Positions 1 to 9,059 of a stretch of 64,000 bases of DNA are shown piece by piece. The notes beneath the pieces are model-generated. The model was not told the origin of the DNA. It saw only the letters and a list, made by a program, of their open reading frames with translations, and did not search any database. Where the stretch lies: positions 6,714,893-6,778,892 of the forward strand of contig NC_014623.1 in NCBI RefSeq assembly GCF_000165485.1, written 5' to 3'. The first letter of the stretch is position 1. Every line of letters begins with the position of its first letter. Source of the DNA: Stigmatella aurantiaca DW4/3-1. Lineage in GTDB: Bacteria > Myxococcota > Myxococcia > Myxococcales > Myxococcaceae. Made by a program: the position numbers and the translations under genes.

Positions 1-1097
1 ACGAGCACCGGATGGCGCATGACCCAGGTGGCCAATCCGTGCCAGAGCCCTTCCTTGTCCGCGAACAGACTGGGAAACGGAACGCGGCCCCGGTTCACCC
101 GGGGGCCCAGCCAAGACAACAGCGCCGGCAGGACAGTCAGCGCGAACACCACCGCGAAGGCGACGACGAGGGCGCCGCCGATCCCCATCGCACTGAGGTA
201 AGAGCCCCGGTAGAACAGGAGGCCCGCGAGCCCCACGGCCACGGCGAGCCCGGAGAAAGCCACCGCGCGTCCCGCCGTGTCGAGCGTCCGCTCCAGCGCC
301 GCCTCGATGCCCTGCTCCCGCTCCAGCTCCGAGCGGAAGCGGCTGACGATGAAGAGCGAATAGTCGATCGCCACCCCCATTCCGATGAGGGACACGACGT
401 TGATCGTGTATTGGGCCATGTCGGTGAAGTGCGACAGCGCGAACACGCCCGCCACGCCCGAGAGCACCGCGAGCCCACCCACCACCAGGGGCAAGAGCGA
501 AGCCACCCAGGTCCGGAAGACGCGCAGCAACACCAGGAGCGCCAGCGGGAAGGAGATCAGCTCGGCACGCAGGAGATCCTCCTCGAGCAGTTGGTTCAGC
601 GCGTCGATGAAGGCGATCCTGCCCGTGAGGGTGGCCTGCAGCGGCCCAGCGCTCAGCACCGCGCGGACCTCGGGAAAGGCCCGGGTCGCCTCGCGGATGT
701 CTCCCTTGAGCCGGACCAGCGCCAGGGTGTCATGCCCCGTGCTGGCCTGGAGCTGCGCGGCCACGGCCTTGGGGGCGCCCAGCGGCGAAAGCACCCCCTC
801 CACCGAAGGGAGCTTCGCGGCGGCCTCCAACGTGCCCTTCAGCGCGTCCTGGAACTCCTTGCTGGTGTTGCGCAAGGTGTCCGAGTGGAAGACGACGGCG
901 AGGGTGGTGTCGGTCGAGCCCACGGTGGTGGCCGACGCGAGCTGCTGCGCCCGCTCCGCCTCGGTGCCCTCCACGACGCCCGTGCTCAGGCGGCCTCCGC
1001 GCACGAGGGCGGCAATGGCCAGCGCGAGGAACACGGCACTGGCCGCGAACACCAGCCCCCGGTGGTGATGAATGGCCCTCGCGAGCGCGCGAAACAT
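1..1097 (-). CDS. RND/MMPL-family transporter, 3'-truncated by window edge
   Basis: The first 365 codons of an RND-superfamily (MMPL/HpnN-like) inner-membrane exporter are present. The ATG at 1097 is preceded by an AAGGAG ribosome site. Residues about 15-34 form TM1, then a periplasmic domain runs to about residue 165, followed by a cluster of five or more TM segments. The fourth TM holds the family signature GMGVAIDYSLFIVSR, in which an Asp-Tyr pair sits in the proton-relay helix. The gene starts 35 bp after the cycloartenol synthase stop on the same strand, so it is probably in the same transcript. RND members of this type move hydrophobic lipids such as hopanoids. A sterol substrate is inferred only from position. 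The C-terminal half lies outside the window. Confidence 0.85.
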   Translation of the reverse strand, partial: MFRALARAIHHHRGLVFAASAVFLALAIAALVRGGRLSTGVVEGTEAERAQQLASATTVGSTDTTLAVVFHSDTLRNTSKEFQDALKGTLEAAAKLPSVEGVLSPLGAPKAVAAQLQASTGHDTLALVRLKGDIREATRAFPEVRAVLSAGPLQATLTGRIAFIDALNQLLEEDLLRAELISFPLALLVLLRVFRTWVASLLPLVVGGLAVLSGVAGVFALSHFTDMAQYTINVVSLIGMGVAIDYSLFIVSRFRSELEREQGIEAALERTLDTAGRAVAFSGLAVAVGLAGLLFYRGSYLSAMGIGGALVVAFAVVFALTVLPALLSWLGPRVNRGRVPFPSLFADKEGLWHGLATWVMRHPVL

Positions 1098-1132
1098 AGA
1101 GGTCCGGCTCCTTCAAGCGGTGCGGCGACTGG

Positions 1133-4186: not shown

Positions 4187-5566
4187 ATGGGGAGCTTCTT
4201 GAATACGGACGTGGTCATCATCGGGGCAGGCCCGGCGGGCTGTGCAAGCGCGGCGGCATTGTCACAGTTGGGCCATTCGGTTCTTCTCATCGATGCGGGG
4301 CAGGACCGCAGCAAGCAGCTCGCGGGCGAGCTGCTTCATCCCCCCGGGGTGGAAGATTTGCGCACGCTGGGCTTCGGACCCGCGCTGGAGGCCTGTCACG
4401 GCCAGCCGGTCCAAGGCTTTGCCGTCGTGGACACCCGGCGGGAGCGGCGGACGACCCAGCTGACCTACAACGGTTCGAGCCAGGGTCTGTCGCTCGAACA
4501 CGCCCGCTTCGCGCAGAGCCTGCTGGAGGCCGTGGAGCGGCTGCCCAACGTCACGGTGTGGCGCAAGACGCGGCTCACCGCCCTGCTCCGCAACGATGCC
4601 GACGGCGTCGTGCTCACGGTCGTGCGCGGTGGGGAACAGCAGCAGGTGTTCACACCTCTGCTGGTGGCGGCGGACGGGCGCAGCTCCTTCGTCCGGAAGC
4701 TCCTGGGCATCGAGGAGCAGCACGATCGGCTCTCGAGCATGGTGGGGGTGACGGTGGACGCGCAGGCCCTTCCCCACGCGGGCCACGGGCACATCTTCAT
4801 TGGAGGCAACGCCCCGGTCCTCGCCTACGCCATCGAGCCAGACGTGGCGCGCGTGATGGTCGACGTTCCCTTGGGTGCAACAGCTCAGCAATTGCACTCA
4901 TCACCTGAGCTTCTGAATGGGGTGCCACAACCCCTGCGAGGCGCCATCCTAGAGGCACTCGAGCGTGAAACACCCCGGATGGCCTCGAATGACACACGCC
5001 TCCCGCGCCGGGTGACCCTGGGCCGGGTCGTCCTCGTGGGAGACGCGGCGGGGTGCTGCCACCCGGTAAGCGCGAGTGGGATGGCCTCGGGGATCAGCGA
5101 CGCGATGGCGCTCCAGCAGTCGCTCCGGGAGAGCCTCAACAACGTCCCACGTGCCCTGCGCCGCTACGTCCAGCGCCGCCGCTCGGCTCAGCGGACACGC
5201 ATCGCCCTGGCTTCTGCCCTCTATCAGGCGTTCTCCATTCAGCGCGAGGACATGGACGCCCTGAGGACGGGACTGCTCCGCTACTGGGAGGAGAGCACCA
5301 CGGGGGGGCGCAACTCGATGGAACTGCTGTCGACGCGCGAGACCCGGATGTGGGTCATGGCGCGCGAGTACATGCGGGTGGTCGGCTATGGCATCGGCGC
5401 GCTGACCTCGGAGGCCTTCAGCCACCAGCGCCGGGACTTCGAGACACTCATGCGCGCGGGGACGGGCCTGCTGACCTCGGCGTTTCCCCACTTGCAGGAC
5501 TCGGCACGCGGAGGGCTGGAGGACGCCTTCGCGACGCTCGCCGCCAGCAAGGCGCGGCGCAGGTAA
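4187..5566 (+). CDS. Squalene monooxygenase (squalene epoxidase)
   Basis: A 459-residue FAD-dependent monooxygenase that makes 2,3-oxidosqualene, the substrate of the cyclase next door. The N-terminal Rossmann motif GAGPAG is at residues 13-18, the DG motif (ADGRSSFVRK) near 163, and the FAD-ribityl GD motif (GDAAGCCHPVSASGMASG) at 285-302. The length fits squalene epoxidases, which are shorter in bacteria than in eukaryotes. There is no N-terminal membrane anchor; a C-terminal amphipathic region may hold the protein at the membrane. It is transcribed divergently from squalene synthase across a 55-bp gap. Squalene synthase, epoxidase and cyclase together complete the route from FPP to the first sterol. 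Confidence 0.9.
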   Translation: MGSFLNTDVVIIGAGPAGCASAAALSQLGHSVLLIDAGQDRSKQLAGELLHPPGVEDLRTLGFGPALEACHGQPVQGFAVVDTRRERRTTQLTYNGSSQGLSLEHARFAQSLLEAVERLPNVTVWRKTRLTALLRNDADGVVLTVVRGGEQQQVFTPLLVAADGRSSFVRKLLGIEEQHDRLSSMVGVTVDAQALPHAGHGHIFIGGNAPVLAYAIEPDVARVMVDVPLGATAQQLHSSPELLNGVPQPLRGAILEALERETPRMASNDTRLPRRVTLGRVVLVGDAAGCCHPVSASGMASGISDAMALQQSLRESLNNVPRALRRYVQRRRSAQRTRIALASALYQAFSIQREDMDALRTGLLRYWEESTTGGRNSMELLSTRETRMWVMAREYMRVVGYGIGALTSEAFSHQRRDFETLMRAGTGLLTSAFPHLQDSARGGLEDAFATLAASKARRR

Positions 5567-5588: not shown

Positions 5589-6539
5589 TTAGAGCCGCCG
5601 GCCCGTCGCGCGCGTGCGCAGGTTGTCGAGCAGCACGGCGAGCAGGAGAATCACGCCGCGCACCACGTACTGGTAGAAGGCCTGGATGTTCATCAGGTTC
5701 ATCACGTTTTCGGCGATGCCCATGATGAGCACGCCCACCAGCACGCCTGAAATGGCGGCCCTCCCTCCCGCCAGGGACACTCCACCCAGGACACAGGCGG
5801 AGATGACCGACAGCTCGAGCCCCTGAGCGGCATTGGGCTGGCCGCTGGTGATGCGCGAGGACAGCAGGATCCCGGCCACCGCGCAGAGCAACCCCTGGAG
5901 GGTGAAGATCCAGATCCGGATGGTGCCCACGTTGACGCCGGCCAGGCGCGAGGCATCCGGGTTGCCGCCGATGGCCAGCGTGTTGCGCCCGAAGACGGTG
6001 CGGTTCAGCACGAAGCCGAAGAGGACAAAGCAGAACACCATGGCGAGCACCGGCAAGGGAATGCCCAGCGGGGCGCTCATCGCGATATCGAAGTAGGCCG
6101 GATCATCCACCCCCACCGCGCGTCCGTCGGAGGCGATCAACGCCGACCCGCGGACAATCTGCATCGTGGCCAGCGTCGTGATGAGGGCGTTGATCCGGAG
6201 CTTGGCGATCACCACCCCATTGATGGCGCCCACCACCACGCCGGCCAGCAACGCGGCCAGAATGCCCAGCAAGAGGTTCTCGGTGTTGTTGGACACCATC
6301 ACCGCGACCATGCCGGTAAACGCCACCGTCGAGCCGACGGACAGATCGAAGTCCCGCGAGGCCAGGCAGAGCATCATCGTGCAGGCGACGATGCCGATGG
6401 TGACGACGGACTGGAGCAGGCCCAGGATGTTCCGCTGCGTCATGAAGCTGGGAACGGTGACGCAGACGATGCCCAGGGCCAGCAGGAACAGGATGACGAG
6501 CCCCTGCTCTCCCAGCACGGCCCTCTTCAAGCGATCCAT
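5589..6539 (-). CDS. araH: L-arabinose-type ABC transporter permease
   Basis: A 316-residue inner-membrane permease of the RbsC/AraH family. Multiple hydrophobic helices run through its length, and the family motif appears in DFDLSVGSTVAFTG near residue 65. It forms the channel for the AraF-type binding protein and AraG-type ATPase encoded upstream, with 12 bp between the araG stop and this start. Close agreement of the whole gene set with enterobacterial AraFGH supports arabinose or a similar pentose/galactose as ligand, but the permease itself does not reveal the substrate. It converges on squalene monooxygenase with a 22-bp gap, and I see no clear intrinsic terminator there. Confidence 0.88.
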   Translation of the reverse strand: MDRLKRAVLGEQGLVILFLLALGIVCVTVPSFMTQRNILGLLQSVVTIGIVACTMMLCLASRDFDLSVGSTVAFTGMVAVMVSNNTENLLLGILAALLAGVVVGAINGVVIAKLRINALITTLATMQIVRGSALIASDGRAVGVDDPAYFDIAMSAPLGIPLPVLAMVFCFVLFGFVLNRTVFGRNTLAIGGNPDASRLAGVNVGTIRIWIFTLQGLLCAVAGILLSSRITSGQPNAAQGLELSVISACVLGGVSLAGGRAAISGVLVGVLIMGIAENVMNLMNIQAFYQYVVRGVILLLAVLLDNLRTRATGRRL

Positions 6540-6551
6540 TTCAACATCCTC

Positions 6552-8051
6552 TCAAGCCGCCGTCCGGTCAGGCAGCGCCGCGGCCAGGATCTTCTCCTCT
6601 GCGAAGTCGGGCCGTTGAAACTCCGCGGCGATACGGCCGCCGCACATCACCGCGATGCGGTCGCTGATGCCCATGACCTCGGGCAGCTCACTGGAGATGA
6701 CGATGAGCGCGATGCCTTGCTCGGCCAACCCATAGAGCACATCGTAGATCTCGCTCTTGGCCCCGACGTCGATTCCCCGCGTGGGCTCGTCGACGATGAA
6801 GATCTTGATGCCCTGCTCGGACAACCAGCGGGACAGAATGACCTTCTGCTGGTTGCCGCCCGACAGGTTCTCGATGGCCTGCTTGCGCGACGGGGTCCGC
6901 ACCCCCAGGCGCTGGATGAACGCCTCGGCCATCTCGCCTTCCCGGCGGGTGTTCACGATGCCGAAGGGCGAGAAGTGGCGGCGCGAGGAGATGGCGATGT
7001 TCTCCTCCACCGACTGGCCCTGGAGGATGCCATCGGCCTTGCGGTCCTCCGGGCAGAGCACGAGGCCCGCGCGCACCGCCTGCCGGGGATGGTGGATCTG
7101 GACCGGCACCCCGTCGATGCGCAGCTCGCCTGCGCGGCGCTTGTCGGCGCCATACAGGAGCCGCGCCAGCTCGCTGCGGCCGGCGCCCACCAGCCCGAAG
7201 AAGCCGAGAATCTCCCCGGCGCGAACCTCGAAGCCCGTAGGGGCCGTCAGGCGCGAGCCCTCCAGCCCCGAGACGGAGAGCCGCACCGCGCCGGGCGTGC
7301 GGGCCCTCCAGCCCCAGATGTCCTGGATCTCCCGGCCCACCATCTCCCGCACCAGCACCTCGCGCGTCAGCCCCTGCAAGGTGTCGTGCTGGGCCACCAA
7401 CCGGCCATCACGCAGCACGACGCAGCCATCGCACAGGCGGAAGATCTCATCCAGCCGGTGGGAGACATACAGGATGACCTTGCCGGCCGCGCGCAGCCTT
7501 TCCACCAGCCGGAAGAGCACCTCGCTCTCATGGGCGGAGAGCGAGGAGGTGGGCTCGTCCAAGGCAATGACCGAGGCGTCGAAGATGGCGGCCTTGGCAA
7601 TCTCCACCATCTGCCGGGTGCCCAGCGACAGATCGGCCACCTTGGCCTGGGGGTTCACCTCGATGCCGACCTCCCGCAGCACCGCGCCGACCTTGGCGAA
7701 CAGTTCCTTGAAGCGGACGACCCCGAACCGGGAGGGAAAGCGGCCCAGCATGAGGTTCTCGGCCACCGTCAGCTCCGGCACGAGCTGAAGCTCCTGGTGG
7801 ACGACGGTCACCCCGGCGGCGATCGAATCGCGCGTCGAGACGAAGCGCTGCGCCTTTCCACCGATGCGCAGCTCACCGCTCTCGGGGGTGTAATCCCCCC
7901 CGAGAATCTTGATGAGCGTGGACTTGCCCGCGCCGTTCTCGCCCAGCAGACCGATGACCCTCCCCGCCGAAACCGAGAAGCTCAATTCCTTGAGGGCCCG
8001 GACGCCAGGGAAGCTCTTGGTGATGTTCGTGAACTCGAGAAACGGAGCCAT
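6552..8051 (-). CDS. araG: L-arabinose-type ABC transporter ATP-binding protein (two nucleotide-binding domains)
   Basis: A 499-residue duplicated ATPase typical of monosaccharide importers. The first domain has Walker A GENGAGKST near residue 36, signature LSLGTRQ and Walker B VIALDEPTSSL. The second half has the signature ENLSGGNQQK and a Walker B ending in VDEPTRGIDVG, and it lacks a normal Walker A, as is usual for the second domain of this family. A GGGAGG ribosome site precedes the ATG at 8051. It lies between the binding-protein gene and the permease gene with short gaps, a standard SBP-ATPase-permease operon order. Confidence 0.9.
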   Translation of the reverse strand: MAPFLEFTNITKSFPGVRALKELSFSVSAGRVIGLLGENGAGKSTLIKILGGDYTPESGELRIGGKAQRFVSTRDSIAAGVTVVHQELQLVPELTVAENLMLGRFPSRFGVVRFKELFAKVGAVLREVGIEVNPQAKVADLSLGTRQMVEIAKAAIFDASVIALDEPTSSLSAHESEVLFRLVERLRAAGKVILYVSHRLDEIFRLCDGCVVLRDGRLVAQHDTLQGLTREVLVREMVGREIQDIWGWRARTPGAVRLSVSGLEGSRLTAPTGFEVRAGEILGFFGLVGAGRSELARLLYGADKRRAGELRIDGVPVQIHHPRQAVRAGLVLCPEDRKADGILQGQSVEENIAISSRRHFSPFGIVNTRREGEMAEAFIQRLGVRTPSRKQAIENLSGGNQQKVILSRWLSEQGIKIFIVDEPTRGIDVGAKSEIYDVLYGLAEQGIALIVISSELPEVMGISDRIAVMCGGRIAAEFQRPDFAEEKILAAALPDRTAA

Positions 8052-8072
8052 ACGCCTCCCAGACAGGAACGG

Positions 8073-9059
8073 CTACTGGAGGCCGAGATCCTTGCGCACC
8101 GCCTGGTAGGTTTCACGGGTCGCCAACTTGCCGGAGGTCAGAATGAGCTTCTCCGGCTCCTTGTTCGCCGTGATCCAGTTGTACATGTTGATCGCCGTCT
8201 CATACCCATGACGCTTCGGCGAGATGATGACACTGCCGTAGAACCCTGTCGGGCTGGGCTTCTTGAACTCGTTGATGGCCGCATCCGAGCCGCCAATGCC
8301 CACGGCGATCACATCCGCGGCCTTCAACCCCGCCGCCTCGGACGCCCGGACGGCCCCGAGCACCGCCTCATCATTGAGCCCGAACGCCACCCACTTCTTG
8401 ATATTGGCATTCTTGTTGAGGACGACGTTGGCTGCATTCAGCGCCGCTTCCGTGTCGGTCTTGCTCTGGGGCGCATCGAAGATGTTCGACGCCACGAAAC
8501 CATTCTGTTTCAGCACCGAGATAGCGCCTTCGACGCGGTCCTTCGCGGTGGGAAGCTGATCATAGGACACGCGGATGGCTCCCACTTCTTTCATATTCCA
8601 ACCACGCGCCTTGATCTGATCGACGATGGCTTGCCCCACGGCCTCGCCGATCTTGGTGGCTGAGATGCCCATGTGCGGCACGTTCTCGAGCGGCTTGCCC
8701 TTGCTGTTCACCAACCGGTCATCCACGGTCATCAGCTTGAGCTGGTTTGCGGTGGCGCGCGCCACCAACCCCGGGCCCAGCTTGACGTCCGGCGTGCAAA
8801 TCACCACGCCTTGAGCGCCTTGGGCGCCCAGGTTGTCGATGGCTGACAATGCTTTCTCACCATCCTCGGCGCCAATCTTGACCAGGGTAAAGCCCTTCTC
8901 CTTGGCAGCGATGTCCGCGAACTTCCATTCGTCCTGGAACCAGGGCTCCTCGGGCTGTTTGACGACGAAGCCAATCTTGACATCGGCAGCCACGGACGCG
9001 GTCGACGCCATGAGCACAGACATGGCACAAGCCATGAACAGCTTATTCACGAAGCGCAT
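8073..9059 (-). CDS. araF: L-arabinose-binding periplasmic protein
   Basis: A 328-residue sugar-binding protein with a signal peptide (residues 1-24, hydrophobic core then ASVAAD). The mature start resembles E. coli AraF closely: KIGFVVKQPEEPWFQDEWKF, then VICTPDVKLG, VDDRLVNSKGKP and GFYGSVIISPKRHGYE are near matches. This makes L-arabinose the likeliest ligand, with D-galactose or D-xylose possible. A GGAGG site lies just upstream of the ATG. Myxobacteria feed mainly on protein, and no arabinose catabolic gene or AraC regulator flanks the operon, so its use here is unclear. By eye the coding bases look less GC-rich than those of neighbouring genes, which hints at acquisition. Confidence 0.9.
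   Translation of the reverse strand: MRFVNKLFMACAMSVLMASTASVAADVKIGFVVKQPEEPWFQDEWKFADIAAKEKGFTLVKIGAEDGEKALSAIDNLGAQGAQGVVICTPDVKLGPGLVARATANQLKLMTVDDRLVNSKGKPLENVPHMGISATKIGEAVGQAIVDQIKARGWNMKEVGAIRVSYDQLPTAKDRVEGAISVLKQNGFVASNIFDAPQSKTDTEAALNAANVVLNKNANIKKWVAFGLNDEAVLGAVRASEAAGLKAADVIAVGIGGSDAAINEFKKPSPTGFYGSVIISPKRHGYETAINMYNWITANKEPEKLILTSGKLATRETYQAVRKDLGLQ

Follow-up and report, generated by a model that had tools for sequence, protein, structure and literature searches.

An MmpL3-like transporter gene associated with the sterol gene cassette of Stigmatella aurantiaca DW4/3-1 and other Myxococcaceae

The window, the whole 64,000-nucleotide stretch of the Stigmatella aurantiaca DW4/3-1 genome analysed here (positions 6,714,893-6,778,892 of a 10,260,756-base single contig), opens within a transporter gene that closes a run of three, squalene synthase - 2,3-oxidosqualene cyclase (OSC) - transporter (Table 1). 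The 3' half missing from the window was recovered from the host genome, and the complete ORF (L021:11744-13990) encodes 748 aa. Its 3' end lies 1,149 bases ahead of window position 1, with the stop codon of up10, a convergent gene for a 537-aa protein, 36 bp away. The initial annotation had an MMPL/RND gene starting 35 bp after the cyclase stop on the same strand with a good ribosome-binding site, and this was confirmed, as the transporter starts with an ATG at 1097-1095, OSC stops with a TAG at 1135-1133, both on the minus strand, and the GAAGGAG motif is present, its AAGGAG being kept in three congeners. A search between positions 900 and 4400 for sigma-70-like promoters and for terminators was negative, although such a search has little power in a GC-rich myxobacterium, and a search of the region for structured RNA found none. 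The squalene synthase, OSC and transporter genes would be transcribed together as an operon. The designation of the OSC product as cycloartenol is taken from the S. aurantiaca literature, in which STAUR_5418/5420 are the published locus numbers (PMC4919349). A literature search that included the locus tags expected from the gene order returned no paper reporting the transporter locus. The host genome encodes no close paralogue of the transporter, the best other MMPL locus scoring 47 bits.

Table 1. Sterol genes, transporter and adjoining features, in positions of the window.
Feature	Position	Strand	Details
MmpL3-like MMPL/RND transporter, N-terminal part	1..1097	-	365 codons (3-1097); remaining 383 codons outside the window
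OSC-to-transporter gap	1098..1132	-	35 bp, without promoter- or terminator-like site
GAAGGAG ribosome-binding site of transporter	1108..1114	-	10 nt from ATG
2,3-oxidosqualene cyclase (OSC), 650 aa	1133..3085	-	TIGR03463, 1093 bits (cut-off 851)
Squalene synthase, 349 aa	3082..4131	-	SQS_PSY; 4-bp ATGA overlap with OSC
Squalene epoxidase, 459 aa	4187..5566	+	PF08491, 98 bits; divergent from squalene synthase
ABC-type sugar transporter operon, three genes	5589-9059		within the tlyA-up10 interval

The full-length transporter matched the Pfam MMPL family (PF03176) with 245.5 bits (E 8.9e-73, cut-off 20.5). Its top NCBIfam model was that of MmpL3 (NF052608), with 328.7 bits (E 9.4e-98), and because this score is below the cut-off of 1400 the protein is termed MmpL3-like rather than MmpL3; no curated model reached its equivalog cut-off. 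A PDB sequence search gave MmpL3 at 5e-80 and HpnN at 2e-4. The structure was predicted for a cassette member that is 69% identical (the L147 homologue) in place of the window protein, with a mean pLDDT of 87.3 and a pTM of 0.84. For this model of the homologue, Foldseek gave a TM score of 0.86 with MmpL3 and 0.67-0.70 with HpnN, and VIA-align superposed 697 residues on MmpL3 at 2.8 Å with a Z score of 51.8. D245-Y246 and D632-Y633 of the window protein align with D256-Y257 and D645-Y646 of MmpL3, the proton-relay pairs of that protein, and all four residues are invariant across 17 orthologues. The transporter thus belongs to the MmpL3-like subgroup by its whole-length fold, as seen in the L147 homologue, and by both Asp-Tyr pairs, as seen in the window protein, and therefore resembles the MmpL3-type proteins, which are exporters of envelope lipids. 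It would likewise be coupled to the proton gradient. Like MmpL3, with which it shares ~29% identity, it is an MMPL protein that lacks large additional periplasmic insertions. However, it stops at 748 aa and lacks the long C-terminal tail of MmpL3. In addition, MmpL3 of Mycobacterium exports trehalose monomycolate, a glycolipid, whereas the transporter sits in a sterol cassette and mycolates are not expected in myxobacteria.

The initial annotation had drawn an analogy with HpnN and with the RND sterol transporter of Methylococcus, and this part did not hold, as the protein scored 329 bits with MmpL3 and 78 bits with HpnN, and was unmatched by BstA. With HpnN it has in common the RND fold, and the cargo of HpnN is a polycyclic triterpenoid, but membership of that family was rejected, since the scores were far under both cut-offs (78.4 vs 751.85 bits for TIGR03480 and 42.5 vs 1100 bits for NF052374) and the fold match was lower than to MmpL3. 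Membership of the BstA family (NF045600) was also rejected, the transporter being unlisted at E 0.001. BstA of Methylococcus, which acts with BstB and BstC, is similarly an RND protein coded next to sterol genes (PMC10942540), but its model spans 903 positions and is HpnN-like. The NF045600 cut-off was exceeded by no genome of Myxococcota. BstA-like RND proteins (1093-1231 bits, cut-off 1400) were found in eight genomes of the family f11 (L218-L225), and in Myxococcota such proteins belong to other families, chiefly f11, and not to Myxococcaceae. Hence, two RND types in the phylum are associated with sterol-producing lineages. Six of the eight f11 genomes have no OSC at E 1e-60.

The distribution of the transporter was compared with that of OSC (E 1e-60 or better) in 195 Myxococcota genomes, with 49% or more taken as the threshold for an orthologue. 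OSC was found in 57 genomes and the transporter in 42; both were present in 37, the transporter alone in five, OSC alone in 20 and neither in 133. An orthologue is thus encoded by 37/57 OSC-positive vs 5/138 OSC-negative genomes (Fisher p 5e-20), a value that is inflated by kinship, as the genomes are related and their independence is therefore overstated. Stronger evidence than this phylum-wide count is the contrast within genera, where the numbers of genomes with both genes and with neither are 4 and 3 in Stigmatella (g1), 3 and 1 in g7, and 5 and 22 in g19, with zero mixed cases. Cassette genes would be lost together whatever their roles, which weakens joint loss as evidence of function. 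In genus g4, the transporter is present in one of five OSC carriers.

The association with sterol genes suggested by the initial annotation was set against the combination of a separate promoter and no co-occurrence with sterol cyclases; no promoter was seen and the co-occurrence is strong. That proposal thus stands in its sterol part, given the co-occurrence, the linkage and the joint gain and loss, and fails in its assignment to the HpnN/BstA family. Nevertheless, strict sterol specificity is argued against by the five OSC-less carriers (G027, G056, G057, G058 and G155), which are 94-98% complete and have the orthologue at 51-55%. The 20 OSC-positive genomes that lack an orthologue also count against a dedicated role in the sterol cassette. 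No confident match to OSC or hopene cyclase was found in the five carriers, one match, in G155, being below the cut-off, and hopanoid genes were rejected on this ground as the explanation of their transporters. No neighbouring gene is consistently shared by the transporter loci of the OSC-less genomes (L094, L097, L098, L100 and L101). Because of these five carriers, the ancestral cargo was probably another lipid, and recruitment to sterols would have come later, in Myxococcaceae.

Where OSC and the transporter are on one contig, they are on the same strand in 28/28 genomes, with a gap of 38 bp-5.5 kb. Each resolvable copy in the clade of the window transporter is at most 5.5 kb from OSC, and two gene orders are found. 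The transporter comes immediately after OSC in g1 and g7. The cassettes of g5, g6, g19, g21 and g11 run transporter - HpnI-like glycosyltransferase - [epoxidase, opposite strand] - squalene synthase - OSC; contigs of several draft genomes end inside the glycosyltransferase gene, which fits this order. Beyond these, the arrangement is transporter - [epoxidase] - synthase - OSC in G189, a member of a different Myxococcota family, and OSC - epoxidase - transporter in G059, from another family of the same taxonomic order, the two transporters showing 51-54% identity. A counter-case is G070 (g4), where the transporter and OSC are on separate contigs and OSC is far from the contig ends. Linkage that survives rearrangement carries more weight than adjacency in a single genome. 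In three g7 genomes, a single open frame of 1169-1256 aa directly before OSC (L086:10642-14151; L087:3057-6650; L088:11008-14778) combines squalene epoxidase, partial similarity to the OSC C-terminus and squalene synthase.

An HMG-CoA reductase gene lies before the transporter in g5 and g19 and in a single g6 genome; in L084, L089 and L147 the two genes share 4 bp. This coupling in g5 and g19, and the location of the transporter within a pathway cassette, could be accounted for if the protein removed squalene, oxidosqualene or surplus cyclase products and so protected the inner membrane, with no delivery to the outer membrane; squalene does accumulate in Corallococcus coralloides (PMC4919349). 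However, in the examined OSC flanks of other OSC-positive genomes, mostly those without an orthologue, no MMPL gene was found, and the MmpL3-type proteins are known as exporters of envelope lipids, so that this role appears improbable.

The position of the cassette was examined relative to tlyA and up10. In the window genome, the interval between these genes is ~10.4 kb and contains the squalene epoxidase, squalene synthase, OSC and transporter genes together with the three ABC-type sugar transporter genes, whereas in the OSC-negative congener G099 ~170 bp separate tlyA, whose stop is near L235:4035, from up10, whose 3' end is at 4208. The unit includes the transporter as its outermost gene, and gain and loss of the cassette are indistinguishable. 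The site is variable within the genus, with other genes in the interval in G098 and G100 (L233:10066-16254; L234:6601-16077) and none in G099. Relatives of the sugar transporter operon are located elsewhere in G100 and G093.

In a quick tree, the Myxococcaceae transporters sampled, ten OSC-linked copies, formed one clade (SH-aLRT 100), nested in a 20-member Myxococcota clade (support 100) in which linked and unlinked copies are mixed. Copies from Chloroflexi, Dormibacterota, Rokubacteria and Rubrobacteraceae come next, and the relatives in the first three, at 45-48% identity, have no sterol gene in the retrieved flanks. Among 80 named relatives, sterol genes were found beside only two loci, L138 and L147, both of genus g6; as L138 is from genome G085 and L147 from genome G086, no independent linkage comes from either. 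This broad spread at 45-48% identity, together with the five OSC-less carriers and the variation of the tlyA interval among congeners, would be expected of a general MmpL3-like lipid exporter that merely shares a genomic island with functionally unrelated sterol genes. Such chance company is nonetheless unlikely, given that same-strand linkage is kept under two gene orders, that G059 and G189, whose transporters show 51-54% identity, have deep linkage, and that the Myxococcaceae clade includes zero unlinked copies where contigs permit checking.

The HpnI-like glycosyltransferase gene adjoins the transporter gene in the sterol cassettes of L090 (7314-8501, with an ATGA overlap), L084, L085, L089 and L091-L094. 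In the four copies scanned, the TIGR03472 score was 113-119 bits (cut-off 310). OSC is present in 29/31 genomes that carry the glycosyltransferase. The gene is absent from Stigmatella (g1) genomes, and none was found in the cassette flanks of g7, which is presumably Cystobacter, so that C. fuscus would correspond to this genus. In G056, which has no OSC, the transporter also adjoins the glycosyltransferase, and this pairing favours a glycolipid cargo in that genome. Extended to the whole group, the cargo would be a glycolipid produced by the glycosyltransferase, for example from ceramide or from another lipid, and the sterol link would reflect a shared membrane programme. The adjacency of the two genes in g5, g6, g19, g21, g11 and G056 is compatible with this, as is the fact that MmpL3 itself moves a glycolipid, trehalose monomycolate. 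Yet g1 and g7, in whose cassettes no such glycosyltransferase was seen, keep the transporter directly after OSC, and in g1, g7 and g19 the transporter tracks the presence of OSC exactly. General glycolipid export is thus doubtful, although it is the least unlikely of the alternatives to sterol transport.

The glycosyltransferase may instead act on the sterol, and is a candidate for sterol conjugation. The genus g6, which includes Corallococcus sp. CA053C (L138), is Corallococcus, and its cassette has the glycosyltransferase. In C. coralloides the epoxidase and OSC are intact, but only squalene was yielded and free sterol was undetected (PMC4919349). By comparison, g1 and g7 would match S. aurantiaca and C. 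fuscus, for which free cycloartenol was reported (PMC4919349). One explanation is that C. coralloides makes a sterol conjugate that was missed by GC-MS; the alternative suggested by the authors of that study is lack of expression (PMC4919349). No sterol conjugate has been identified intact in bacterial sterol producers (PMC10202945). It is conceivable, as a tentative proposal, that Myxococcaceae have an MmpL3-like sterol export route independent of BstA and HpnN, and that in Corallococcus and its relatives the glycosyltransferase conjugates the sterol before export.

The transporter is inherited and lost with the sterol genes and therefore probably carries the bacterial sterol or a derivative across the envelope. 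The best reading is that an MmpL3-like lipid exporter was recruited to the Myxococcaceae sterol cassette and moves cycloartenol or a conjugate outward. As judged by the genetics of the cassette only, the cargo would be a sterol, namely cycloartenol, or, where a relative has the glycosyltransferase next to the transporter, a sterol conjugate. On balance, the protein is likely to be a proton-driven inner-membrane lipid transporter of the MmpL3-like type that belongs to the sterol cassette of Myxococcaceae as a dedicated component and has such a cargo. Cycloartenol made at the inner membrane would be taken up by the transporter, uptake would be driven by protons via the Asp-Tyr pairs, and the sterol would then be handed on to the periplasm or outer membrane, if the presumed direction is correct.

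The use that bacteria make of sterols, and the route by which these reach the outer membrane, are an open question in the field. In the literature searched, no bacterial sterol transport set other than BstABC of methanotrophs was described (PMC10942540), and a different RND subfamily tied to a cycloartenol cassette would be a second solution to sterol transport. The Corallococcus glycosyltransferase bears on the published puzzle of a strain that has OSC but lacks free sterols (PMC4919349), and on the question of bacterial sterol conjugates (PMC10202945). If true, conjugation before export would explain how C. coralloides can have OSC and squalene epoxidase without detectable free sterol.
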